Below are positions 3,474 to 41,035 of a DNA stretch of 41,058 nt, piece after piece (positions within the stretch are counted from its first letter, which is position 1; the number at the start of each line of letters is the position of its first letter). Below the pieces are notes generated by a model. It was given only the letters and a program-made list of their open reading frames with translations. It made no database searches and was not told where the DNA came from. A program made the position numbers and the translations under genes. The DNA is from a virus, in the IMG/VR virus record IMGVR_UViG_3300034110_000061, positions 1 to 41,058 of that record. One strand, 5' to 3'.

Positions 3474-3950
3474 CTAAAGGCGTTTAGTAATAGATTGCCT
3501 GCTAGTATAAGCTGAACCAGCACGAGTATACAAACCAAACCTGTCAAGTAATCCACCACCCCATGCACTCCCTACAATCGCAAAAACTATGTCAACCGGC
3601 ATACTGACTGACTGGCGCAACTCATGCAGCCAGTTGAATACGTAAAAGCGGCCGATTTCATCAACAAGTTTTAGCCCTTCACACATTAAACTAGTGAATA
3701 TTATTAGCGCATACGTCAGCGCTATTATGTTGGAAATCTTATGAAAACTTGATATTTGACAGCAACAAGCAATTATCAGCGTGTCTAGCGCCATTTGTGC
3801 GCCGTAATAGACTGCCGGTTCGTGAACAGTCAGCGACCTAAGAACGATATAGGTGAAGTAGTAAAGCAGAATGACCAAGCAGAGGTTTAACCCCCTGCCA
3901 GTCACCAGCCACAATACAAAAAGCAGTATTGCCGCTTGTTCGTTGCTCAC
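3474..3950 (-). CDS. Multi-pass membrane protein, candidate holin
   Basis: A 158-residue protein with three to four hydrophobic helices: about residues 5-18 (AAILLFVLWLV), 20-36 (LNLCLVILLYYFTYIVL), 52-64 (ALDTLIIACCC) and 73-92 (NIIALTYALIIFTSLM). The C-terminal 60 residues are polar. GTG at 3950 is the likely start: it overlaps the TGA of a 19-codon leader ORF as GTGA and has an AGGA box a few nt upstream. It is the first sizeable gene of the lysis cassette, ahead of the coiled-coil protein and the endolysin, so holin is the best guess. It is longer than most holins and I do not recognise the family. Confidence 0.75.
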   Translation of the reverse strand: MSNEQAAILLFVLWLVTGRGLNLCLVILLYYFTYIVLRSLTVHEPAVYYGAQMALDTLIIACCCQISSFHKISNIIALTYALIIFTSLMCEGLKLVDEIGRFYVFNWLHELRQSVSMPVDIVFAIVGSAWGGGLLDRFGLYTRAGSAYTSRQSITKRL

Positions 3951-4027: not shown

Positions 4028-4057
4028 TGAGGTGCTGGCCATCATGCCAGCACCTCA
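4028..4057 (-). terminator. 12-bp hairpin between fibre and lysis genes
   Basis: A perfect inverted repeat with 12-bp arms (TGAGGTGCTGGC / GCCAGCACCTCA) and a 6-nt loop lies between the stop of the Ig-repeat fibre gene and the lysis leader ORF. No U-run follows on the minus strand, so it is a poor classical intrinsic terminator. It may be partial, an RNA-processing site, or a 3'-end stabiliser that separates fibre from lysis mRNA. Confidence 0.55.
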
Positions 4058-4069
4058 ATCATATACTAG

Positions 4070-7000
4070 CTAGTTGTTGTTTGCCAGATAACTACTATAC
4101 GTCTCAGCGGCCACGATAATATCGGCCGTTGCAAAGATCGATGGGTCACTCGCTTTGTGTACCTTGAACACGTAGCGGCCGCTGACTAGTGAGTCAAACC
4201 GGCTTGTCGTTGTCAGGCTAAGCGCAACCATAGACGACAGCGGCAACGCGGTATCTGCAGCCAGACCGTTAAGCGCTGGACCCCACACAATCGAGTAACT
4301 GAGTACGTAGTCCACGCCATTGGTTCCGGTCAGGTATCGACCGTTGCCCATGCCTGACTCTGTGCTGTATGACGACGAGCCGTCAGGACGGAACACCACA
4401 AACGCAGTCGAGGTGACTGGGTTGCGTGTGTCGTTGACCACGAAGTCGTGCGCGTCAGCTATGCCCAATCCCGGCGCGATATCAGAACCCGGCGGCGGCG
4501 TTGCTACTTCTGTGATCATGAGCATGGCGCTGTCTGCTGTCCCGGTGCCGAGGTTGTTGGTCGCCGTCACGCGCACGAACACCTTAGCGCCTACGTCGGC
4601 GGACTGCGTCACATACGTAGTGCCCGTGGCACCAGCGATCTCTGCTAAGTACGTTTCGCCAGTCATGCCGAACGTCAGTCGATACCACTGATATGACCAT
4701 GTCTGCGGCGCATTGCCGCCGAACACCGTGCCTGTGACCGTCAGACCAGAACCAACGATAGAACTACCGCTGATCACTGGCTGTGTCGTTATGTATGGGA
4801 TCGAACCCTCTATCGCCACGGCATTGGACACAGTAGTCAACGATCCCACCGGGTTGGTCATAGTCTCGGCTAGCGAAATCTGCGATCCGGCATCGCTTTC
4901 ACGCACCGCGTAGGTGTCGCCGGTTTCGCCGACTATAGCTACACCGTCACGACGCCACTGGTTAACCTTAGTGAACGGGCCGTCACCGCCGTAAATACCT
5001 TGATATCGATAAACAACGTTACCGCCCTTGAACACCTGCGGCGGCGTTATAACGAATAGCGGCGTGGTGCCTATCAGGATGACGTTAGAGTTTGCCGAGA
5101 TGGTGCCGACATCATTGCTGATGTACTCGGCGCAGCTGATTGATTTGCCGTCGTCCTGCTGCTGCACAGTGTATGTCGTGCCGGTTGCCCCTGCGATAGC
5201 TGTGCCGTTGCTCAGCCACTGACGGTTGATGTTCAACGGCTGTTGGCCACTGTACGTGCCCGGTGTCAGCGTCAACGTTCCGCCGATAGACTTATCACCG
5301 GCAATGCTCGGGACAGTGGTTATCGATGGCGCAAGGCCGCTGACCCGCAGCACGTTAGATGACGCAGTCACGGTGCCTAACGGGTTCGATATTGTTTCCA
5401 GACAAGTGATCGACGTACCAAGGTCATCGGTCTGCACGACGTATGTTGTGCCCGTTGCGCCCGCGATGTTAGCACCGTTGCGCTGCCAGTTGCGCGTAAC
5501 TGTCATCGGCGCGTCGCCGTTGTACGTGCCCGGCGTCACACTCAGTGTTGAACCGACCTCTACTTGACCGGATATCGACGGGTTGTTGATGATGATCGGC
5601 GACCCATAGCCCATGATCTGATTGTTCGTGTAGAAGTCACTAGACCCCGTGGCATTAGTGGCCGTGACTCGGCAGTCTATCGATTGCCCGATATCATCTT
5701 CGGTAACGGTGTACGGGCTGGACGTCGCGCCGGGAATATCCACGCCATTGCGTCGCCACTGCACAACAATCGTCATCGGGACATCGCCGCCGTAATCACC
5801 TTGAACCAAGTGCATGATCCCGCCCAGTGATGGTGTGCCGTAGATCGACGGTGCCGTCAGCAAGAATGGCGCTTCACCAAAGTTAACGATGATGTTGTTT
5901 GTGGTGACCGACAGCGCCCCGGCTTGGTTTGTTGCTGTGACCACCATGTCAATTGAGTCGCCCGGATAGTCCGTTCCGACTACAAACTCCACGCCCTGAA
6001 CCTCAGAAGGTACGCCGTTGACCCGCCACACGTAACTAATCACCAACGGGATATCACCACCAAACGATCCGAGATCAGCGCGATACGTTAGGATCAGCTC
6101 GTTTGTTTGGTAGATACTCGGTGCCCTAAGCAAGAACGGTGCAACGCCTGCGACGTCGACCGCACCTGAACCGCCTTTAAAGATGTATGACTTGTCGCCG
6201 TCACGGTGCAGCGTCAGCGGGTTGCCCGTCGGTGCTGACTGTGTGAACCGGTCCGAGTAGGCTTTAGGCCAATCGGTACGCACGCCGTCAGCAATTGTGT
6301 AGATGTTCGTGAAGACTGCCGGGAACAGATGCTTATAGACTGTGACATCTGACTCAGCCGCCACGGCACCCGAGACGTTCATCTCACACGCCGCGCCGAA
6401 GCGCAACCGATTGCGGACAGTCGGCATGACATCGCCGACCGGGCTTTCAGCGTCGATCTCTACGCGGTCGATCACGGTCACGCCATCTTTGACAAGCTCA
6501 ATGCGCTTCATCGCCGTGCCGTTATCCGGTGCCGCTTGGGTAAAGCGCAGGATGTAATCGCCGCTGCTGAACGTGATAGCGTCGGTCTGGAATACGAAGT
6601 AGTCACCGCCGTCAAAGCCTGTGCGCTGCAGCCTGACGATAATGTCTTGGTTTGTGATGTCATCCACGTCAACGAACATGAATTGCAGCGTGAATAGGTG
6701 TTCTTCGAACGTGGCGCCCGTTGCTTGGTGCATGCCGCTGTGATCGACAATCGTATAGAAGCCGTTCCAGTTTGTGCCATAACGCCGCGTCAGTGCGCGC
6801 AATTCGCAGTGTGACGGTGCTAGCGCGATCCTGAAACCGACTTCTAGTGCATGACCCTGCAGCTGGCGCATGATGTGCGTCGACGTCTCAAGAGACTTGC
6901 GGTGTTGCATTGAGCCATCGCGCAGGTCACGGAACGTGTAGACCACTTGGAAGCGGTTATCTTCGGTCATGCCTGCTTTTTCTAGCCGCAGAAAGGGGTA

Positions 7001-26366: not shown

Positions 26367-27254
26367 CTCTGACGCTCCTAGTTGCTTGGTTAAAAAATCA
26401 CTAATGGCATTTGACGGCGATGCGATGCCATCAATTAGCCCTAATTCCATCGCTTGATCTACATCATAGCACCGGCCTTCGGTATCATGCACGACCTTCG
26501 CGTCAATACTCCGGTTTTCTGCAACCAACGCGACAAACTTCTCGCGGGTCTTATCCACTTGTGCTTGCATCTCTGCGCGTACTTCCGCTGGCAGCGGGCC
26601 GAACGGGTTGCCGTCGGTCTTATGTTCGCCAGACTGCACAAGCGTTATGTCAAAACCGTAGTCAGCAAGCATCTTGCTCATGTCAACGTGCATAGTCCAC
26701 ACACCGATTGAGCCTACGCCGCCTGTTGGCGTAACGTAGATCGCATCGACAGGCGCTGCCAGCATATAACTTGCTGAGTAACAACCCGAGTCGACTACGG
26801 CCATTGTTGGTTTTACGCCGCGACATTGCGCGATAATCTCGCTAGTTTCGAATGCGCCTGATACTTCGCCGCCGCCTGAGTCGTGATCATACACAATCAG
26901 TGAGACGTCAGGGTCTTCGACCGCTGCGCGCGTTAGGCGTTGGATGTAGTTGTAACCTGTCACAAAGCCGTAGGTCGAACCGAAGCGGTTGATTAGCGTT
27001 CCGTGTACCGGGATGATGGCAACGCCATCCTGAAAGGCGAACGGTTTGCGCTGTGCATTCTGATCAAAACCGTATGCCGCGCAAAGCTGCTTAGTGACGC
27101 GCTCTTCGGTAGTCTCTTCGTCGGCAGTGTCTTCGCTCGCTAAAAAGCGCGTCATGTTTGATTGAAAATTAGAGTTGTTCGGTGCTACTAACAAAGGGCC
27201 ACCGCTCATGCGGCTTAATACCGTAGCGGCGGTTTGGTTAATCTGTCTTGGCAT
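25962..27254 (-). CDS. S49 prohead protease with C-terminal scaffold region (lambda C type)
   Basis: A 430-residue protein starting MPRQINQTAATVLSRM at ATG 27254, which has an AAGGTG box 6 nt upstream and overlaps the portal gene by 17 nt; the longer frame from 27326 lies deeper in the portal gene. Residues about 75-290 form an SppA/ClpP-like S49 peptidase: DSGGGEV, then the nucleophile Ser160 in DSGCYSASYMLA, and the candidate general-base Lys212 in QSGEHKTDGNP. Residues 297-430 are Ala/Pro-rich and helical, a scaffold-type tail that is also translated separately. In lambda the same arrangement (C/Nu3) gives prohead assembly and processing. Confidence 0.92.
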   Translation of the reverse strand: MPRQINQTAATVLSRMSGGPLLVAPNNSNFQSNMTRFLASEDTADEETTEERVTKQLCAAYGFDQNAQRKPFAFQDGVAIIPVHGTLINRFGSTYGFVTGYNYIQRLTRAAVEDPDVSLIVYDHDSGGGEVSGAFETSEIIAQCRGVKPTMAVVDSGCYSASYMLAAPVDAIYVTPTGGVGSIGVWTMHVDMSKMLADYGFDITLVQSGEHKTDGNPFGPLPAEVRAEMQAQVDKTREKFVALVAENRSIDAKVVHDTEGRCYDVDQAMELGLIDGIASPSNAISDFLTKQLGASEMATTTTTPQAADAAPAAAPATPVAAAPVANNVSERQRIREITTCAEAEGRKDLADHLAFGTDMSAEDAKAILGKAPVAAAPAAPVAAAATTFSAAMANTPNPEIGSDAAGSENAELKGADLLAHSYTLATGNKL

Positions 27255-37994: not shown

Positions 37995-38023
37995 AGACTA
38001 AATGTTCGAAATCGACTTGTCAA
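37995..38023 (-). promoter_or_regulatory. Leftward sigma70-type promoter for the main operon
   Basis: On the minus strand a perfect -35 TTGACA (38023-38018) is followed, after exactly 17 nt, by a -10-like TAGTCT (38000-37995; four of six bases match). Transcription would begin near 37988, about 45 nt ahead of the first gene. It is the best promoter match in the control region and precedes the entire leftward gene chain. Confidence 0.65.
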
Positions 38024-38039
38024 ACTTTTTTGTCAGATT

Positions 38040-38081
38040 CTTTCAAAAATTAGGCATTATCTTTCAAAAACTAGGCATTAT
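38040..38081. repeat. Two 21-nt tandem repeats
   Basis: Two adjacent 21-nt units (38040-38060 and 38061-38081) share 20 of 21 bases, each ending in TAGGCATTAT. They are AT-rich and lie upstream of the leftward promoter and beside the replication genes. They could be operator half-sites, iterons or an unwinding element. Confidence 0.85.
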
Positions 38082-38086
38082 GCCTA
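38072..38086. promoter_or_regulatory. Palindrome TAGGCA-TTA-TGCCTA
   Basis: The second tandem repeat runs into its own inverted copy, making a 15-nt palindrome with 6-bp arms and 3-nt centre; a further partial half-site TAGGCC follows at 38090. This gives three related half-sites in about 40 bp, the usual pattern of a repressor-binding region. It could equally be a short cruciform at an origin. Confidence 0.6.
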
Positions 38087-38105
38087 TTTTAGGCCACTTT
38101 ACGTG

Positions 38106-38134
38106 TTGCGTTGTGACACATTGTGACACATAAT
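38106..38134 (+). promoter_or_regulatory. Candidate rightward promoter
   Basis: TTGCGT (38106-38111), a 17-nt spacer and CATAAT (38129-38134, five of six bases) make a plausible plus-strand promoter. It would start transcription near 38141, ahead of the HTH and primase genes. The left arm of the large inverted repeat lies inside it, so a protein bound there would block it. The -35 match is only partial. Confidence 0.5.
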
Positions 38135-38166
38135 CTGTGCCGTGATGTGTCACAATCTGTCACAAC
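38110..38166. promoter_or_regulatory. 22-bp inverted repeat, operator-like
   Basis: Two arms (38110-38131 and 38145-38166) are reverse complements at 21 of 22 positions, around a 13-nt centre. Each arm contains two direct copies of a TGTGACA-type element (TTGTGACACA is tandemly repeated at 38111-38130), so four sites exist in symmetrical pairs. The array covers the rightward promoter and ends 21 nt before the HTH gene start. It is the most structured non-coding signal in the window; the obvious candidate ligand is the adjacent HTH protein. Confidence 0.85.
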
Positions 38167-38187
38167 CTAATAAGGGAGTAAGTTTTA

Positions 38188-38469
38188 ATGAATTTTCCAG
38201 CTTGGGCGGTAGATAGTCCAGTTAACCGGCTTCGGTTCCTGTGCTTGTTTCTCGCCAGTCATGCGGGGGTAGATGGTGTGGCTAGTTTGGCACGCATATC
38301 TAAACTGAACCGCCAAACTATTTATAACGGGATAAACCGGGGGCAGTTCTCACCAACTGCAGCTAAAGCGTTGACGGCTTGCGTTCCGTCGGCCAACGTC
38401 CCGGCGCATTGGCTGATTTTCCCGGAAGGGATCATCATTGTTGATGGGGTGGCAGATGTCCAAAGTTAA
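38188..38469 (+). CDS. Small HTH protein, candidate regulator of the divergent region
   Basis: A 93-residue plus-strand protein with a GGGAG ribosome binding site about 9 nt before its ATG. The segment VDGVASLARISKLNRQTIYN followed by GINRGQFSPTAAKALTACVP reads as a Cro/YdaS-like helix-turn-helix ('..la....v.r.tiy..i..g..sp..A..L'). The C-terminus PAHWLIFPEGIIIVDG is compact and may be a dimerisation strand. It sits directly beside the inverted repeat and is co-transcribed with the primase gene, overlapping it by 14 nt. Autoregulation and control of replication are inferred. The family is not certain. Confidence 0.8.
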   Translation: MNFPAWAVDSPVNRLRFLCLFLASHAGVDGVASLARISKLNRQTIYNGINRGQFSPTAAKALTACVPSANVPAHWLIFPEGIIIVDGVADVQS

Positions 38470-41035
38470 CTATTTTGATAAGTACGGTCCACGCCTGCTG
38501 TCATCCGGGTTTAACTGCGTGCCGATTATCTCGGGCCTGTCTTCACACAATCAGGCGGGCAAAGCGCCGGCGGTGAAGGGCTGGCAGCGCATCGACTTTA
38601 ACCAACAACTACTAAATCACTGGATCACTCAGTACCCACGTTGCGGTATTGGTATTCAAACCCGGTTCACCCCGGCTGTCGATATTGACTGTCCTGACGA
38701 AGAAGCTGCAAGCCACATGCGCCAATTTGTCGAGGAAAAACTAGGCAAAACGATGGCGCGGGTTGGCCGGGCACCTAAGTTGTTGATGCTGTACCGCACC
38801 GAAGATCCGTTCACTAAGGTTAAGTCACACACATGGCTTGATGATTTCGGCGGCCGCCAAGCAGTCGAGATACTTGGTTCGGGTCAACAGTTCGTTGCGT
38901 TCGGTATTCACCCGGTCACCAAAAAGCCATATAAGTGGGTTACTGAGTCGACGCCGCTTGAATGTGATATCGATCTAGACCTGCCAATCATCACACTTGA
39001 AAATGCACGGGACATCACGCGGGCTTTCGACCGCTACGCCAAAGGTCGCGGCTGGACACTGGACCGAGACACGCCCCCTATCAACGGCGGTGACGAGGTT
39101 GACGCTTGGGGTGTTGGTATCGGCGATGATGATGACTCATTTGACGCCGAAGACCTGTTGATCCGGTGGGAAGGCACCGCAGAAGAGCTGGCCGAAATCT
39201 TCGAAGACTTGCCACCGGAAGATAGTTACGACAAGTGGTTCCCGGTACTGGCGGCGTTGAAAGATGCCGAGCGCGAACCGGACGAATTCAAAGAGATCGC
39301 ACGCGACTGGTCTGCTCGGTCGGATAACTACGACGAACAATCATTCGAAGACAAGTGGGAAAACGGTGCATTTGGTCGTGTTAGCGGCCGCGTCGCCAAT
39401 ATCCACGGCATTGTAAAGCGTGTTGCCCGTATTCGCCGTGAAAACGAGGTGATCGACAAGATTATCCCGGATTTCAATGACTGTTTAAGCATGAAAGATT
39501 GGATGTTAGCGGCAGAGCGGATGGCTGAAACTGAGGTTTTTGGTCCAGTTCGTGAATTAGCGGTCGAAGTAGCAACCGAAGCGTATAAACGGATCAACAA
39601 CGTCAAGCGCGTGCCTAAGTCGGCCATTGACTATCTGGCGTTTGATTTCAGCAAGTTTGACCCGCCAGCTTGGTTGGCCCCGTGGGTTTTCGACAGTATT
39701 CGCGGTGATTTCGTTAACCGTCGCAGCTTCCAACCTATCGGCCCGTACTCATTCAACCTGTTGAACGCACGCGCCCTGCGCGAGATGGGCATCAAGAAGA
39801 AAGCCGATATGTTTGCGTCGGAAGACTACCCGATCCCAATGGTTGACGGCTTGATGTACTTCCCTGCCATGCACGGCAGCATGCCAGAAAACCGACATGA
39901 AGCGGTGATCGGTCAGGCTGGTCCCGAGTTTTTCAGCTATATGGGCAAAACGTATTTAAACACGTTCGACCCGTCGACGCTGCCGGTGATGCCTGATACT
40001 TATTCGAAAGCAGACCAAGCGGCCATAGCTGTCGTGATGAATTTCTTTGAGGTTGAATTCCCGAACGAGCGCGAACGGCGTTACGTGATGGATTTTCTAG
40101 CGTGGATTATTCAGCACCCGACACGTCGGATCAACTATGCCCTGCTTATCGTTGGCTGCGAAGGCTCGGGCAAGTCAATCATCAAAAAATTTATGACGTA
40201 TCTACTAGGCGGAACGCGAAACGTCGGCACCGTCTCAAACACGGTGTTGCAGAAGTCGTTCACCTCATGGATGCACGGCCATATTTTAAAGGTAATCGAG
40301 GAAATTTCAATCCCCGGCCACCGTTACGACATCGTAAACCTGCTGAAAGAACCAATTACAAACGAAACCATGCAGACGGAAGGCAAACACCGTGACGCTG
40401 ACGAAGGCGTAAACACCGCCAGCTATATGATGTTCACCAATGAGCCGGGCGCGGTTCCAGTTGGCGAAGAGTCACGGCGCTACCTTATTGTTTCAAGCGC
40501 GTTTGAAGTTAAATCGCAAGTTGTGTCATTCATGGAAGAAAACCCGCGATTCTTTAAACGGTTTGAATTGGCGTTCATGCGCCATGCCGGGGCGATTAGA
40601 AAATACTTTAGTGAGTGGCAATTCTCTGACGATTTTGACCATGAAGGCCATGCGCCAAGTGGTACAAAAGCCAAGGCGGTGATGCGTCATATCAACACAG
40701 ATTCTCTAGTCGAAGCGCTGGAAACTGCCATCGAATCAGGTGACATTTCAGGTGTCACCAAAGAGGTGATCCACGCATCCGGGTTGACTAGTTTGCTGTA
40801 CAATATCGGCATGAAGTCCAGCGCGCAGGTCGCACACCGTTTAGCCCGTTTGGGCTTCGAAACACCGGGCGAAGGGCGGCCGCGAGTGCGTTTAAGTGGT
40901 GTTTTAGGCACTGTTTACATCCACCGCGACTACTTAGAGCAGTTCGGCGGCGACAATTTGGACCTAGTTGCCGTAGCACGTCACTTGCAAAATCACGCAG
41001 AATTTGCAGCGGATCGAGAATTTGACGAAGTTTAG
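38456..41035 (+). CDS. Primase-polymerase / helicase fusion (NrS-1-like, DUF5906)
   Basis: An 859-residue protein starting MSKVNYFDKYGPRLLSSGF at 38456 (GGGG box about 6 nt upstream), overlapping the HTH gene by 14 nt. Residues about 10-180 are a prim-pol domain with Asp76-x-Asp78 (TPAVDIDCPDEE), SGQQFVAFGIHP (His152) and a downstream Trp. Residues about 245-310 fit a PriCT-2 domain (DLPPEDSYDKWFPVLAALKD). The C-terminal half is an SF3/DUF5906-type helicase: Walker A VGCEGSGKS near residues 567-575, Walker B LKVIEEIS near 610-617, then sensor-type MFTNEPGAVPV. It should lay primers and unwind DNA for the family A polymerase. It is the only large gene on the plus strand. Confidence 0.93.
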   Translation: MSKVNYFDKYGPRLLSSGFNCVPIISGLSSHNQAGKAPAVKGWQRIDFNQQLLNHWITQYPRCGIGIQTRFTPAVDIDCPDEEAASHMRQFVEEKLGKTMARVGRAPKLLMLYRTEDPFTKVKSHTWLDDFGGRQAVEILGSGQQFVAFGIHPVTKKPYKWVTESTPLECDIDLDLPIITLENARDITRAFDRYAKGRGWTLDRDTPPINGGDEVDAWGVGIGDDDDSFDAEDLLIRWEGTAEELAEIFEDLPPEDSYDKWFPVLAALKDAEREPDEFKEIARDWSARSDNYDEQSFEDKWENGAFGRVSGRVANIHGIVKRVARIRRENEVIDKIIPDFNDCLSMKDWMLAAERMAETEVFGPVRELAVEVATEAYKRINNVKRVPKSAIDYLAFDFSKFDPPAWLAPWVFDSIRGDFVNRRSFQPIGPYSFNLLNARALREMGIKKKADMFASEDYPIPMVDGLMYFPAMHGSMPENRHEAVIGQAGPEFFSYMGKTYLNTFDPSTLPVMPDTYSKADQAAIAVVMNFFEVEFPNERERRYVMDFLAWIIQHPTRRINYALLIVGCEGSGKSIIKKFMTYLLGGTRNVGTVSNTVLQKSFTSWMHGHILKVIEEISIPGHRYDIVNLLKEPITNETMQTEGKHRDADEGVNTASYMMFTNEPGAVPVGEESRRYLIVSSAFEVKSQVVSFMEENPRFFKRFELAFMRHAGAIRKYFSEWQFSDDFDHEGHAPSGTKAKAVMRHINTDSLVEALETAIESGDISGVTKEVIHASGLTSLLYNIGMKSSAQVAHRLARLGFETPGEGRPRVRLSGVLGTVYIHRDYLEQFGGDNLDLVAVARHLQNHAEFAADREFDEV

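Follow-up and report, generated by a model that had tools for sequence, protein, structure and literature searches.

The divergent intergenic region of a Casjensviridae phage contains a repeat of four half-sites that is very likely a regulatory protein-binding site, and that probably serves as a composite operator through which an HTH protein negatively autoregulates the promoter of its own HTH-primase operon. The analyzed window (41,058 bases, one virus record) is a genome fragment of a Chi/Enc34-like siphophage and was placed in Casjensviridae by its proteins. The features of the window that are discussed below are the following (coordinates, strand, description):

38013..38018, minus strand: -35 hexamer TTGACA of a probable leftward promoter for the replication/recombination genes, assigned by alignment with relatives; its -10 is poor
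38039..38086, no strand assigned: second candidate operator region, a 21-bp direct repeat in two copies (TCTTTCAAAAATTAGGCATTA) running into the dyad TAGGCATTATGCCTA
38106..38111, plus strand: candidate -35 hexamer TTGCGT of the rightward promoter, 17 nt before CATAAT
38110..38131, plus strand: left arm (operator 1), tandem pair TTGTGACACA TTGTGACACA with a period of 10, in the -35/-10 spacer
38129..38134, plus strand: candidate -10 hexamer CATAAT
38136..38139, plus strand: possible fifth half-site, degenerate (TGTG only), keeping the 10-bp register of the right arm, a weaker repeat seen in the sequence
38145..38166, minus strand: right arm (operator 2), inverted tandem pair, approximately +5 to +26 of the predicted transcript
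38174..38178, plus strand: ribosome-binding site GGGAG of the HTH gene, from the sequence
38188..38469, plus strand: 93-aa Cro-fold HTH protein (phrog_7401), the proposed autorepressor, assigned by family match and model
38456..41035, plus strand: primase-polymerase/helicase (Prim-Pol, PriCT-2, DUF5906), assigned by domain content

The two arms, of 22 nt each, are complementary at 21 of 22 positions and enclose a 13-nt loop; at the sole mismatch, the left arm has C and the reverse complement of the right arm has G. When the whole window was scanned without gaps, the repeat at 38110-38166 was by far the strongest inverted repeat, with a score of 19, followed by an unrelated inverted repeat at 4028-4057 with a score of 12; the maxima in six first-order Markov simulations, 41 kb each, were 10-11. 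Of 200 dinucleotide-shuffled versions of the intergenic region, none reached the arm repeat, and the tandem repeat of the left arm was reached in none of 1000 shuffles. The repeat is real and non-random, and the scan, simulations and shuffles bear out the preliminary description of this region, which had reported 22-bp arms with 21 matches. The element had been delimited there as 38106-38187; the feature proper occupies 38106-38166, and the remaining segment, 38167-38187, consists of the leader and the ribosome-binding site.

Exact TTGTGACA half-sites are located at 38111 and 38121 on the plus strand and at 38148 and 38158 on the minus strand, i.e., the four symmetric half-sites, proposed earlier as tandem pairs, are exact copies of one word. 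This word has five exact copies in the window, four of them in the arms and the fifth at 26958; the full site, which the preliminary description had suggested to look for elsewhere in this genome, is single-copy in the window. The four TGTGNCACA-like units are centered at 38116, 38126, 38150 and 38160, with 10 bp spacing inside each arm. Each arm alone is near-palindromic (16/19 and 14/19), and the arms also match as direct repeats (15/19), because TGTG-N-CACA is self-complementary. Therefore, “two operators, each a tandem pair” describes the site equally well as “22-bp inverted repeat”. A simple-sequence duplication or inversion without function would be an extremely improbable source of this structure: tandem 8-bp TGTGACAG copies are found elsewhere in locus L083 and in unrelated contigs, but the four near-identical units have dyad symmetry and are placed on a promoter, and independent tandem repeats are found on the homologous promoter in other lineages.

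Casjensviridae-type proteins of the window are the DUF2800 exonuclease, Enc34-type SSB, PolA, helicase, terminase, portal, capsid and the products of tail genes. The terminase has its best match (64%) in Aeromonas phage phiWae15, and the Prim-Pol primase is 44-47% identical to those of the nearest relatives; no relative was found closer than ~47% primase identity. Close relatives of the HTH protein and of the exonuclease were not found in IMG/VR, and a contig profile search with the primase alignment produced distant matches only, mostly partial, among which the upstream regions of L140-L142 and L184 were inspected. The start codon of the primase (ATG 38456) was picked by comparing relatives; it overlaps the stop codon of the HTH gene and, therefore, the two genes, judging from their layout, are probably co-transcribed. 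The HTH and primase genes, both on the plus strand, are opposed to the genes for the DUF2800 exonuclease, Enc34-type SSB, PolA, helicase and terminase, as in the Casjensviridae module. This divergent arrangement is the family standard, seen across many Casjensviridae genera, and the repeat sits in the divergent intergenic region, upstream of the conserved HTH-primase pair. It should be noted that the primase is inverted relative to the HTH gene in two Aeromonas phages (L009, 3767-6430, and L055, 6489-9167), in which the conserved operon is broken.

The candidate promoter TTGCGT-17-CATAAT matches the consensus at 8 of 12 positions only, i.e., it is weak, and a stricter promoter scanner reported none at the rightward site, the candidate being below its threshold. 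The assignment is backed despite the weak consensus because its position equals that of the promoters of relatives, in which the -10 begins 35-59 nt upstream of the HTH ATG (eleven upstream regions). The left arm fills the spacer of this candidate, consistent with the earlier suggestion that one arm lies between the -35 and -10 of the HTH/primase promoter, and also extends into both hexamers, by two bases at the end of the -35 and by three at the beginning of the -10. Transcription would start near 38141, inside the loop of the repeat. The leftward promoters of relatives are of the TTGACA-17-TATTAT/CATAAT type, and the window hexamer at 38013-38018 aligns with them.

The location of the start bears on a highly improbable explanation, in which a longer transcript through both arms forms a hairpin that acts as a terminator, attenuator or mRNA processing site. 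The full sequence could form a very stable fold (-31.1 kcal/mol, z -6.1), and GCGC-type dyads are frequent in the leaders of relatives. However, this reading is weak because the predicted transcript holds the right arm only, and the folding of its leader is ordinary (z 0.39 versus shuffles). In addition, the scanner found no terminator at the repeat, and a hairpin does not need internal tandem repeats. A start inside the loop, together with a leader that has no special folding, favors action at the DNA level.

A replication origin, with the arms as iterons or as a cruciform to which replication proteins bind beside the primase gene, is very unlikely here. The repeat adjoins the primase gene, its AT-rich flank carries two 21-bp direct repeats, and the cumulative GC skew has a minimum at 37-38 kb; however, this minimum proves nothing because it coincides with the change of gene direction. 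This coincidence, the absence of a DnaA box in 38096-38175 (at least 4 mismatches), and the lack of a comparable repeat in most relatives with homologous primases make the origin reading weak. The arms are, moreover, placed exactly on promoter elements.

Negative autoregulation, the reading that we favor, would operate as follows; here we infer binding by this HTH protein, the sign of its effect and the timing. The HTH protein, expected to share a transcript with the primase, would bind as dimers to both tandem pairs of half-sites, one dimer covering the -35/-10 spacer and the other covering the first ~25 transcribed bases. Once enough HTH protein had accumulated, RNA polymerase would be excluded or blocked, and the primase would be produced in a burst early after infection and then capped. 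Repression is preferred over activation because the operator overlaps the core promoter and the start. In RNA-seq of the related flagellotropic siphovirus JS26, replication genes are expressed mid-infection, and no mention of this promoter was found there (PMC8754663). The term “switch”, applied to the element in the preliminary description, is an overstatement: nothing points to a lysogeny switch, chi, a member of Casjensviridae, is described as lytic (PMC4342425), and simple negative autoregulation suffices. As for a partner in a lambda-type switch, the divergent 126-aa gene matches only phrog_7721 (function unassigned) and has no Pfam HTH match.

The 93-residue product, previously recognized as an HTH protein, is confidently modeled as a Cro-fold HTH. 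It matches phrog_7401 (E 1.4e-13), the same phage protein family as the HTH proteins of relatives, to which no function is assigned, and a tblastn comparison with JC01 gave 3e-8. A Pfam search produced no significant match for the window protein; the HTH proteins of relatives match the Cro/C1-type HTH_26 profile. AlphaFold returned a confident five-helix HTH model (pLDDT 90.1, pTM 0.83), the structural neighbors of which are mostly Cro/CI-type repressors (also SinR) and R-M controller proteins. The best neighbor is Xfaso-1 Cro (Z 6.8); since this value is under 8, the Cro-like assignment holds at the fold level only. E-values of a Foldseek search with the model were not significant (best 0.32). 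The predicted structure has a Cro/lambda-repressor-like HTH fold and supports a Cro-like DNA-binding protein.

Among known systems, the closest operator geometry is that of ArdK of plasmid R388, a 102-aa KorA/TrfB-family repressor that acts on TTGACA direct repeats at the -35 (PMC9723621), i.e., a short HTH repressor is paired there with direct repeats at a promoter -35, as is proposed for the window. ArdK accepts spacers of 3-5 bp (4 bp in the wild type) and inverted repeats too, and acts on five promoters (PMC9723621). TTGACA-N4-TTGACA of ArdK and GTGACA-CATT-GTGACA of the window (38113-38128) have the same 10-bp period and spacing, with 2 mismatches, whereas the window has two opposed tandem pairs in a single-copy site, and its HTH protein models as Cro-like. 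Because the operators look alike, membership of the window protein in the KorA/ArdK family was tested, and was rejected: there was no match to KORA (PF16509) at E 1, BLASTP against ArdK gave E 3.9, and hhalign gave a probability of 7.9%. As a control, ArdK of R388 matched KORA (PF16509) at 2.9e-28. KorA and ArdK are absent among the structural neighbors listed for the HTH model, which proves nothing. Judged by its sequence, the HTH protein is not a KorA/ArdK member, and the window site works like that of ArdK at the operator level only.

Classical Cro/CI operators are single dyads of ~14-17 bp, in arrays, located between two opposed regulators. The window system resembles the Cro/CI repressors (Xfaso-1 Cro, 434 Cro, P22 c2) in the predicted HTH fold and in having operators over the promoter beside the regulator gene; however, the window sites are 10-bp tandem pairs, and the divergent gene is no recognized repressor. 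R-M controller (C) proteins, e.g., C.Esp1396I, are small, Cro-like and encoded first in their operons, and they bind a weak promoter at two neighboring dimer sites (PMC6237814). They are among the structural neighbors of the window HTH and share with it the small Cro-like fold and paired sites. Conversely, C-boxes are located upstream of, or partly over, the promoter and also activate, whereas in the window one site occupies the spacer and the other follows the predicted start. No R-M genes were found among the window neighbors searched, the partner gene being the primase. Literature titles and abstracts contained nothing relevant on TGTGACA with phage repressors, and a search for promoter-level control of the Chi/Enc34-like replication module found no paper. 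The site is very probably of an ordinary autoregulatory kind, with an elaborate and unusual layout that makes it a new variant.

We compared the upstream regions of the HTH gene from 55 loci, window included (53 non-redundant). The window arms were absent from all other upstream regions extracted, and in a blastn search of 50,697 phage records the intergenic region had chance-level matches only. The complete four-site array and an L083-like promoter were also sought, and nothing was found. Three IMG/VR contigs with exact tandem-arm matches (L012-L014) were judged to be unrelated, as they have single arms only and do not encode the tested phage proteins.

Tandem repeats with a period of 8-10, reached in none of 1000 shuffles, are present in 5 of the 53 upstream regions (the window, SNUABM08, L020, L022 and L083). 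All of them lie within the -35/-10 region or overlap it, with their ends 36-67 nt upstream of the ATG. The repeated words differ among most of these five promoters: TTGTGACACA in the window, TCTGGTACA in L020, TGTCTTAGA in L022 and TGTGACAG in L083, two copies each, and ATGGGACAA in Erwinia phage pEp_SNUABM_08, in two copies with a third copy in the spacer. The repeat-bearing promoters have a TTGCNT or TTGTCT -35, and most relatives with no repeats have TTGAC. Poor conservation of the arms, named earlier as a refuting observation, is seen in part: the arm sequence is kept in no relative found, at the primase identities given above, although the architecture of tandem sites recurs. The original proposal of operator-like DNA on the promoter of an HTH/primase-polymerase operon stands, with the operon conserved across Casjensviridae and tandem half-sites recurring in distant relatives. 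The best explanation would be an autorepressor operator that evolves fast between related phages.

The Gwanakrovirus-like group (pEp_SNUABM_08, L017-L022) has the homologous operon with 9-bp tandem half-sites in or around TTGCCT-17-CATNAT; unlike the window, it has other words (TGGKACA, TGTCTTAGA) and no further complete tandem pair beyond the start. In this group, L017-L021 have a common recognition helix, RPDVLSRFMREG, and a common half-site, TGG[GT]ACA, whereas L022 has another helix, RADNLSRHIREG, and another word, TGTCTTAGA; this correspondence is the best evidence that the HTH protein reads the repeats. In L018, direct and inverted copies of the half-site are combined as in the window, with the inverted copy inside the spacer. 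Outside the Gwanakrovirus group, half-site and HTH protein do not track cleanly: L083 has tandem TGTGACAG copies in the corresponding spacer and shares TGTGACA with the window, its HTH protein being 28% identical to that of the window; the HTH protein of JC01 is 65% identical to that of L083, yet the JC01 promoter has no repeats.

This loose link between HTH protein and half-site in L083, JC01 and the window would be expected if the operator were bound by another protein, i.e., a host regulator or a second phage regulator from the ~20 kb missing in the fragment, which we consider rather unlikely. Several relatives encode a further HTH protein beyond the primase, and the -35 boxes of the repeat-bearing promoters, being different from TTGAC, could suit an activator. 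On the other hand, CRP and FNR dyads have at least 3 mismatches, and a LexA-like match is poor (2 mismatches) across the region; ArgR and TyrR sites also have no good match at the repeat. Furthermore, the window has only one copy of the site, which fits local autoregulation.

Under autoregulation by the HTH protein, the window site and its counterparts in relatives would be a testable set of matched repressor-operator pairs for studies of how regulator and operator change jointly, in a large group of phages (Chi/Enc34-like) that are used and studied as lytic phages. It may also be that a Cro-like protein uses direct repeats here. A broader proposal, which is tentative and unlikely as it stands, is that HTH-primase promoters of Casjensviridae are governed by a small Cro-fold repressor that resembles ArdK in reading tandem direct repeats instead of one dyad and in tolerating inverted copies, with rapid turnover of the words and with the architecture, tandem sites of 8-10 bp in the spacer of a weak promoter, kept or re-invented. 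If true, the window would have the most elaborate form, two opposed tandem pairs, and a Cro-fold protein with head-to-tail direct repeats as the natural operator would be unusual.

Other sites were seen in these regions. In the second candidate operator region of the window, the dyad TAGGCATTATGCCTA at 38072-38086 has 7-bp arms and a 1-bp center, and TAGGCC is found at 38090. This cluster (38039-38086) precedes the leftward promoter, at the position of the GGTACC dyads found in most Casjensviridae. GGTACC-centered dyads are located between the divergent promoters in JC01 (L007), SLP-22 (L011), SeWh-1 (L048), SAP012 (L046), L059, L061, L072, SNUABM_08 (L054) and A18P4 (L055); those of SLP-22 and SeWh-1 are 13-15-bp inverted repeats 35 bp apart. 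They seem to mark a regulatory site common to the family and apparently not yet described. In addition, the HTH leader of Chivirus, Jacunavirus, Zhonglingvirus and others (e.g., L048, L046, L061, L083) contains a GCGCAnnTGCGC-type dyad immediately after the -10, at the position that the right arm takes in the window; this dyad is a possible operator or leader hairpin. In L083, three TGTGACAG-type copies are found in tandem at 6410-6440, ~300 nt past the end of the primase match. In L013 (IMGVR_UViG_3300022209_000009), an apparently unrelated phage contig, TTGTGACACATTGTGACACA is located near 6941, directly upstream of a leftward short ORF that is HTH-like by eye. The inverted repeat of the window at 4028-4057 is a perfect 12-bp repeat (TGAGGTGCTGGC/GCCAGCACCTCA) with a 6-nt loop, located between genes ending at 4070 and starting near 3950, and is probably a terminator or boundary hairpin.
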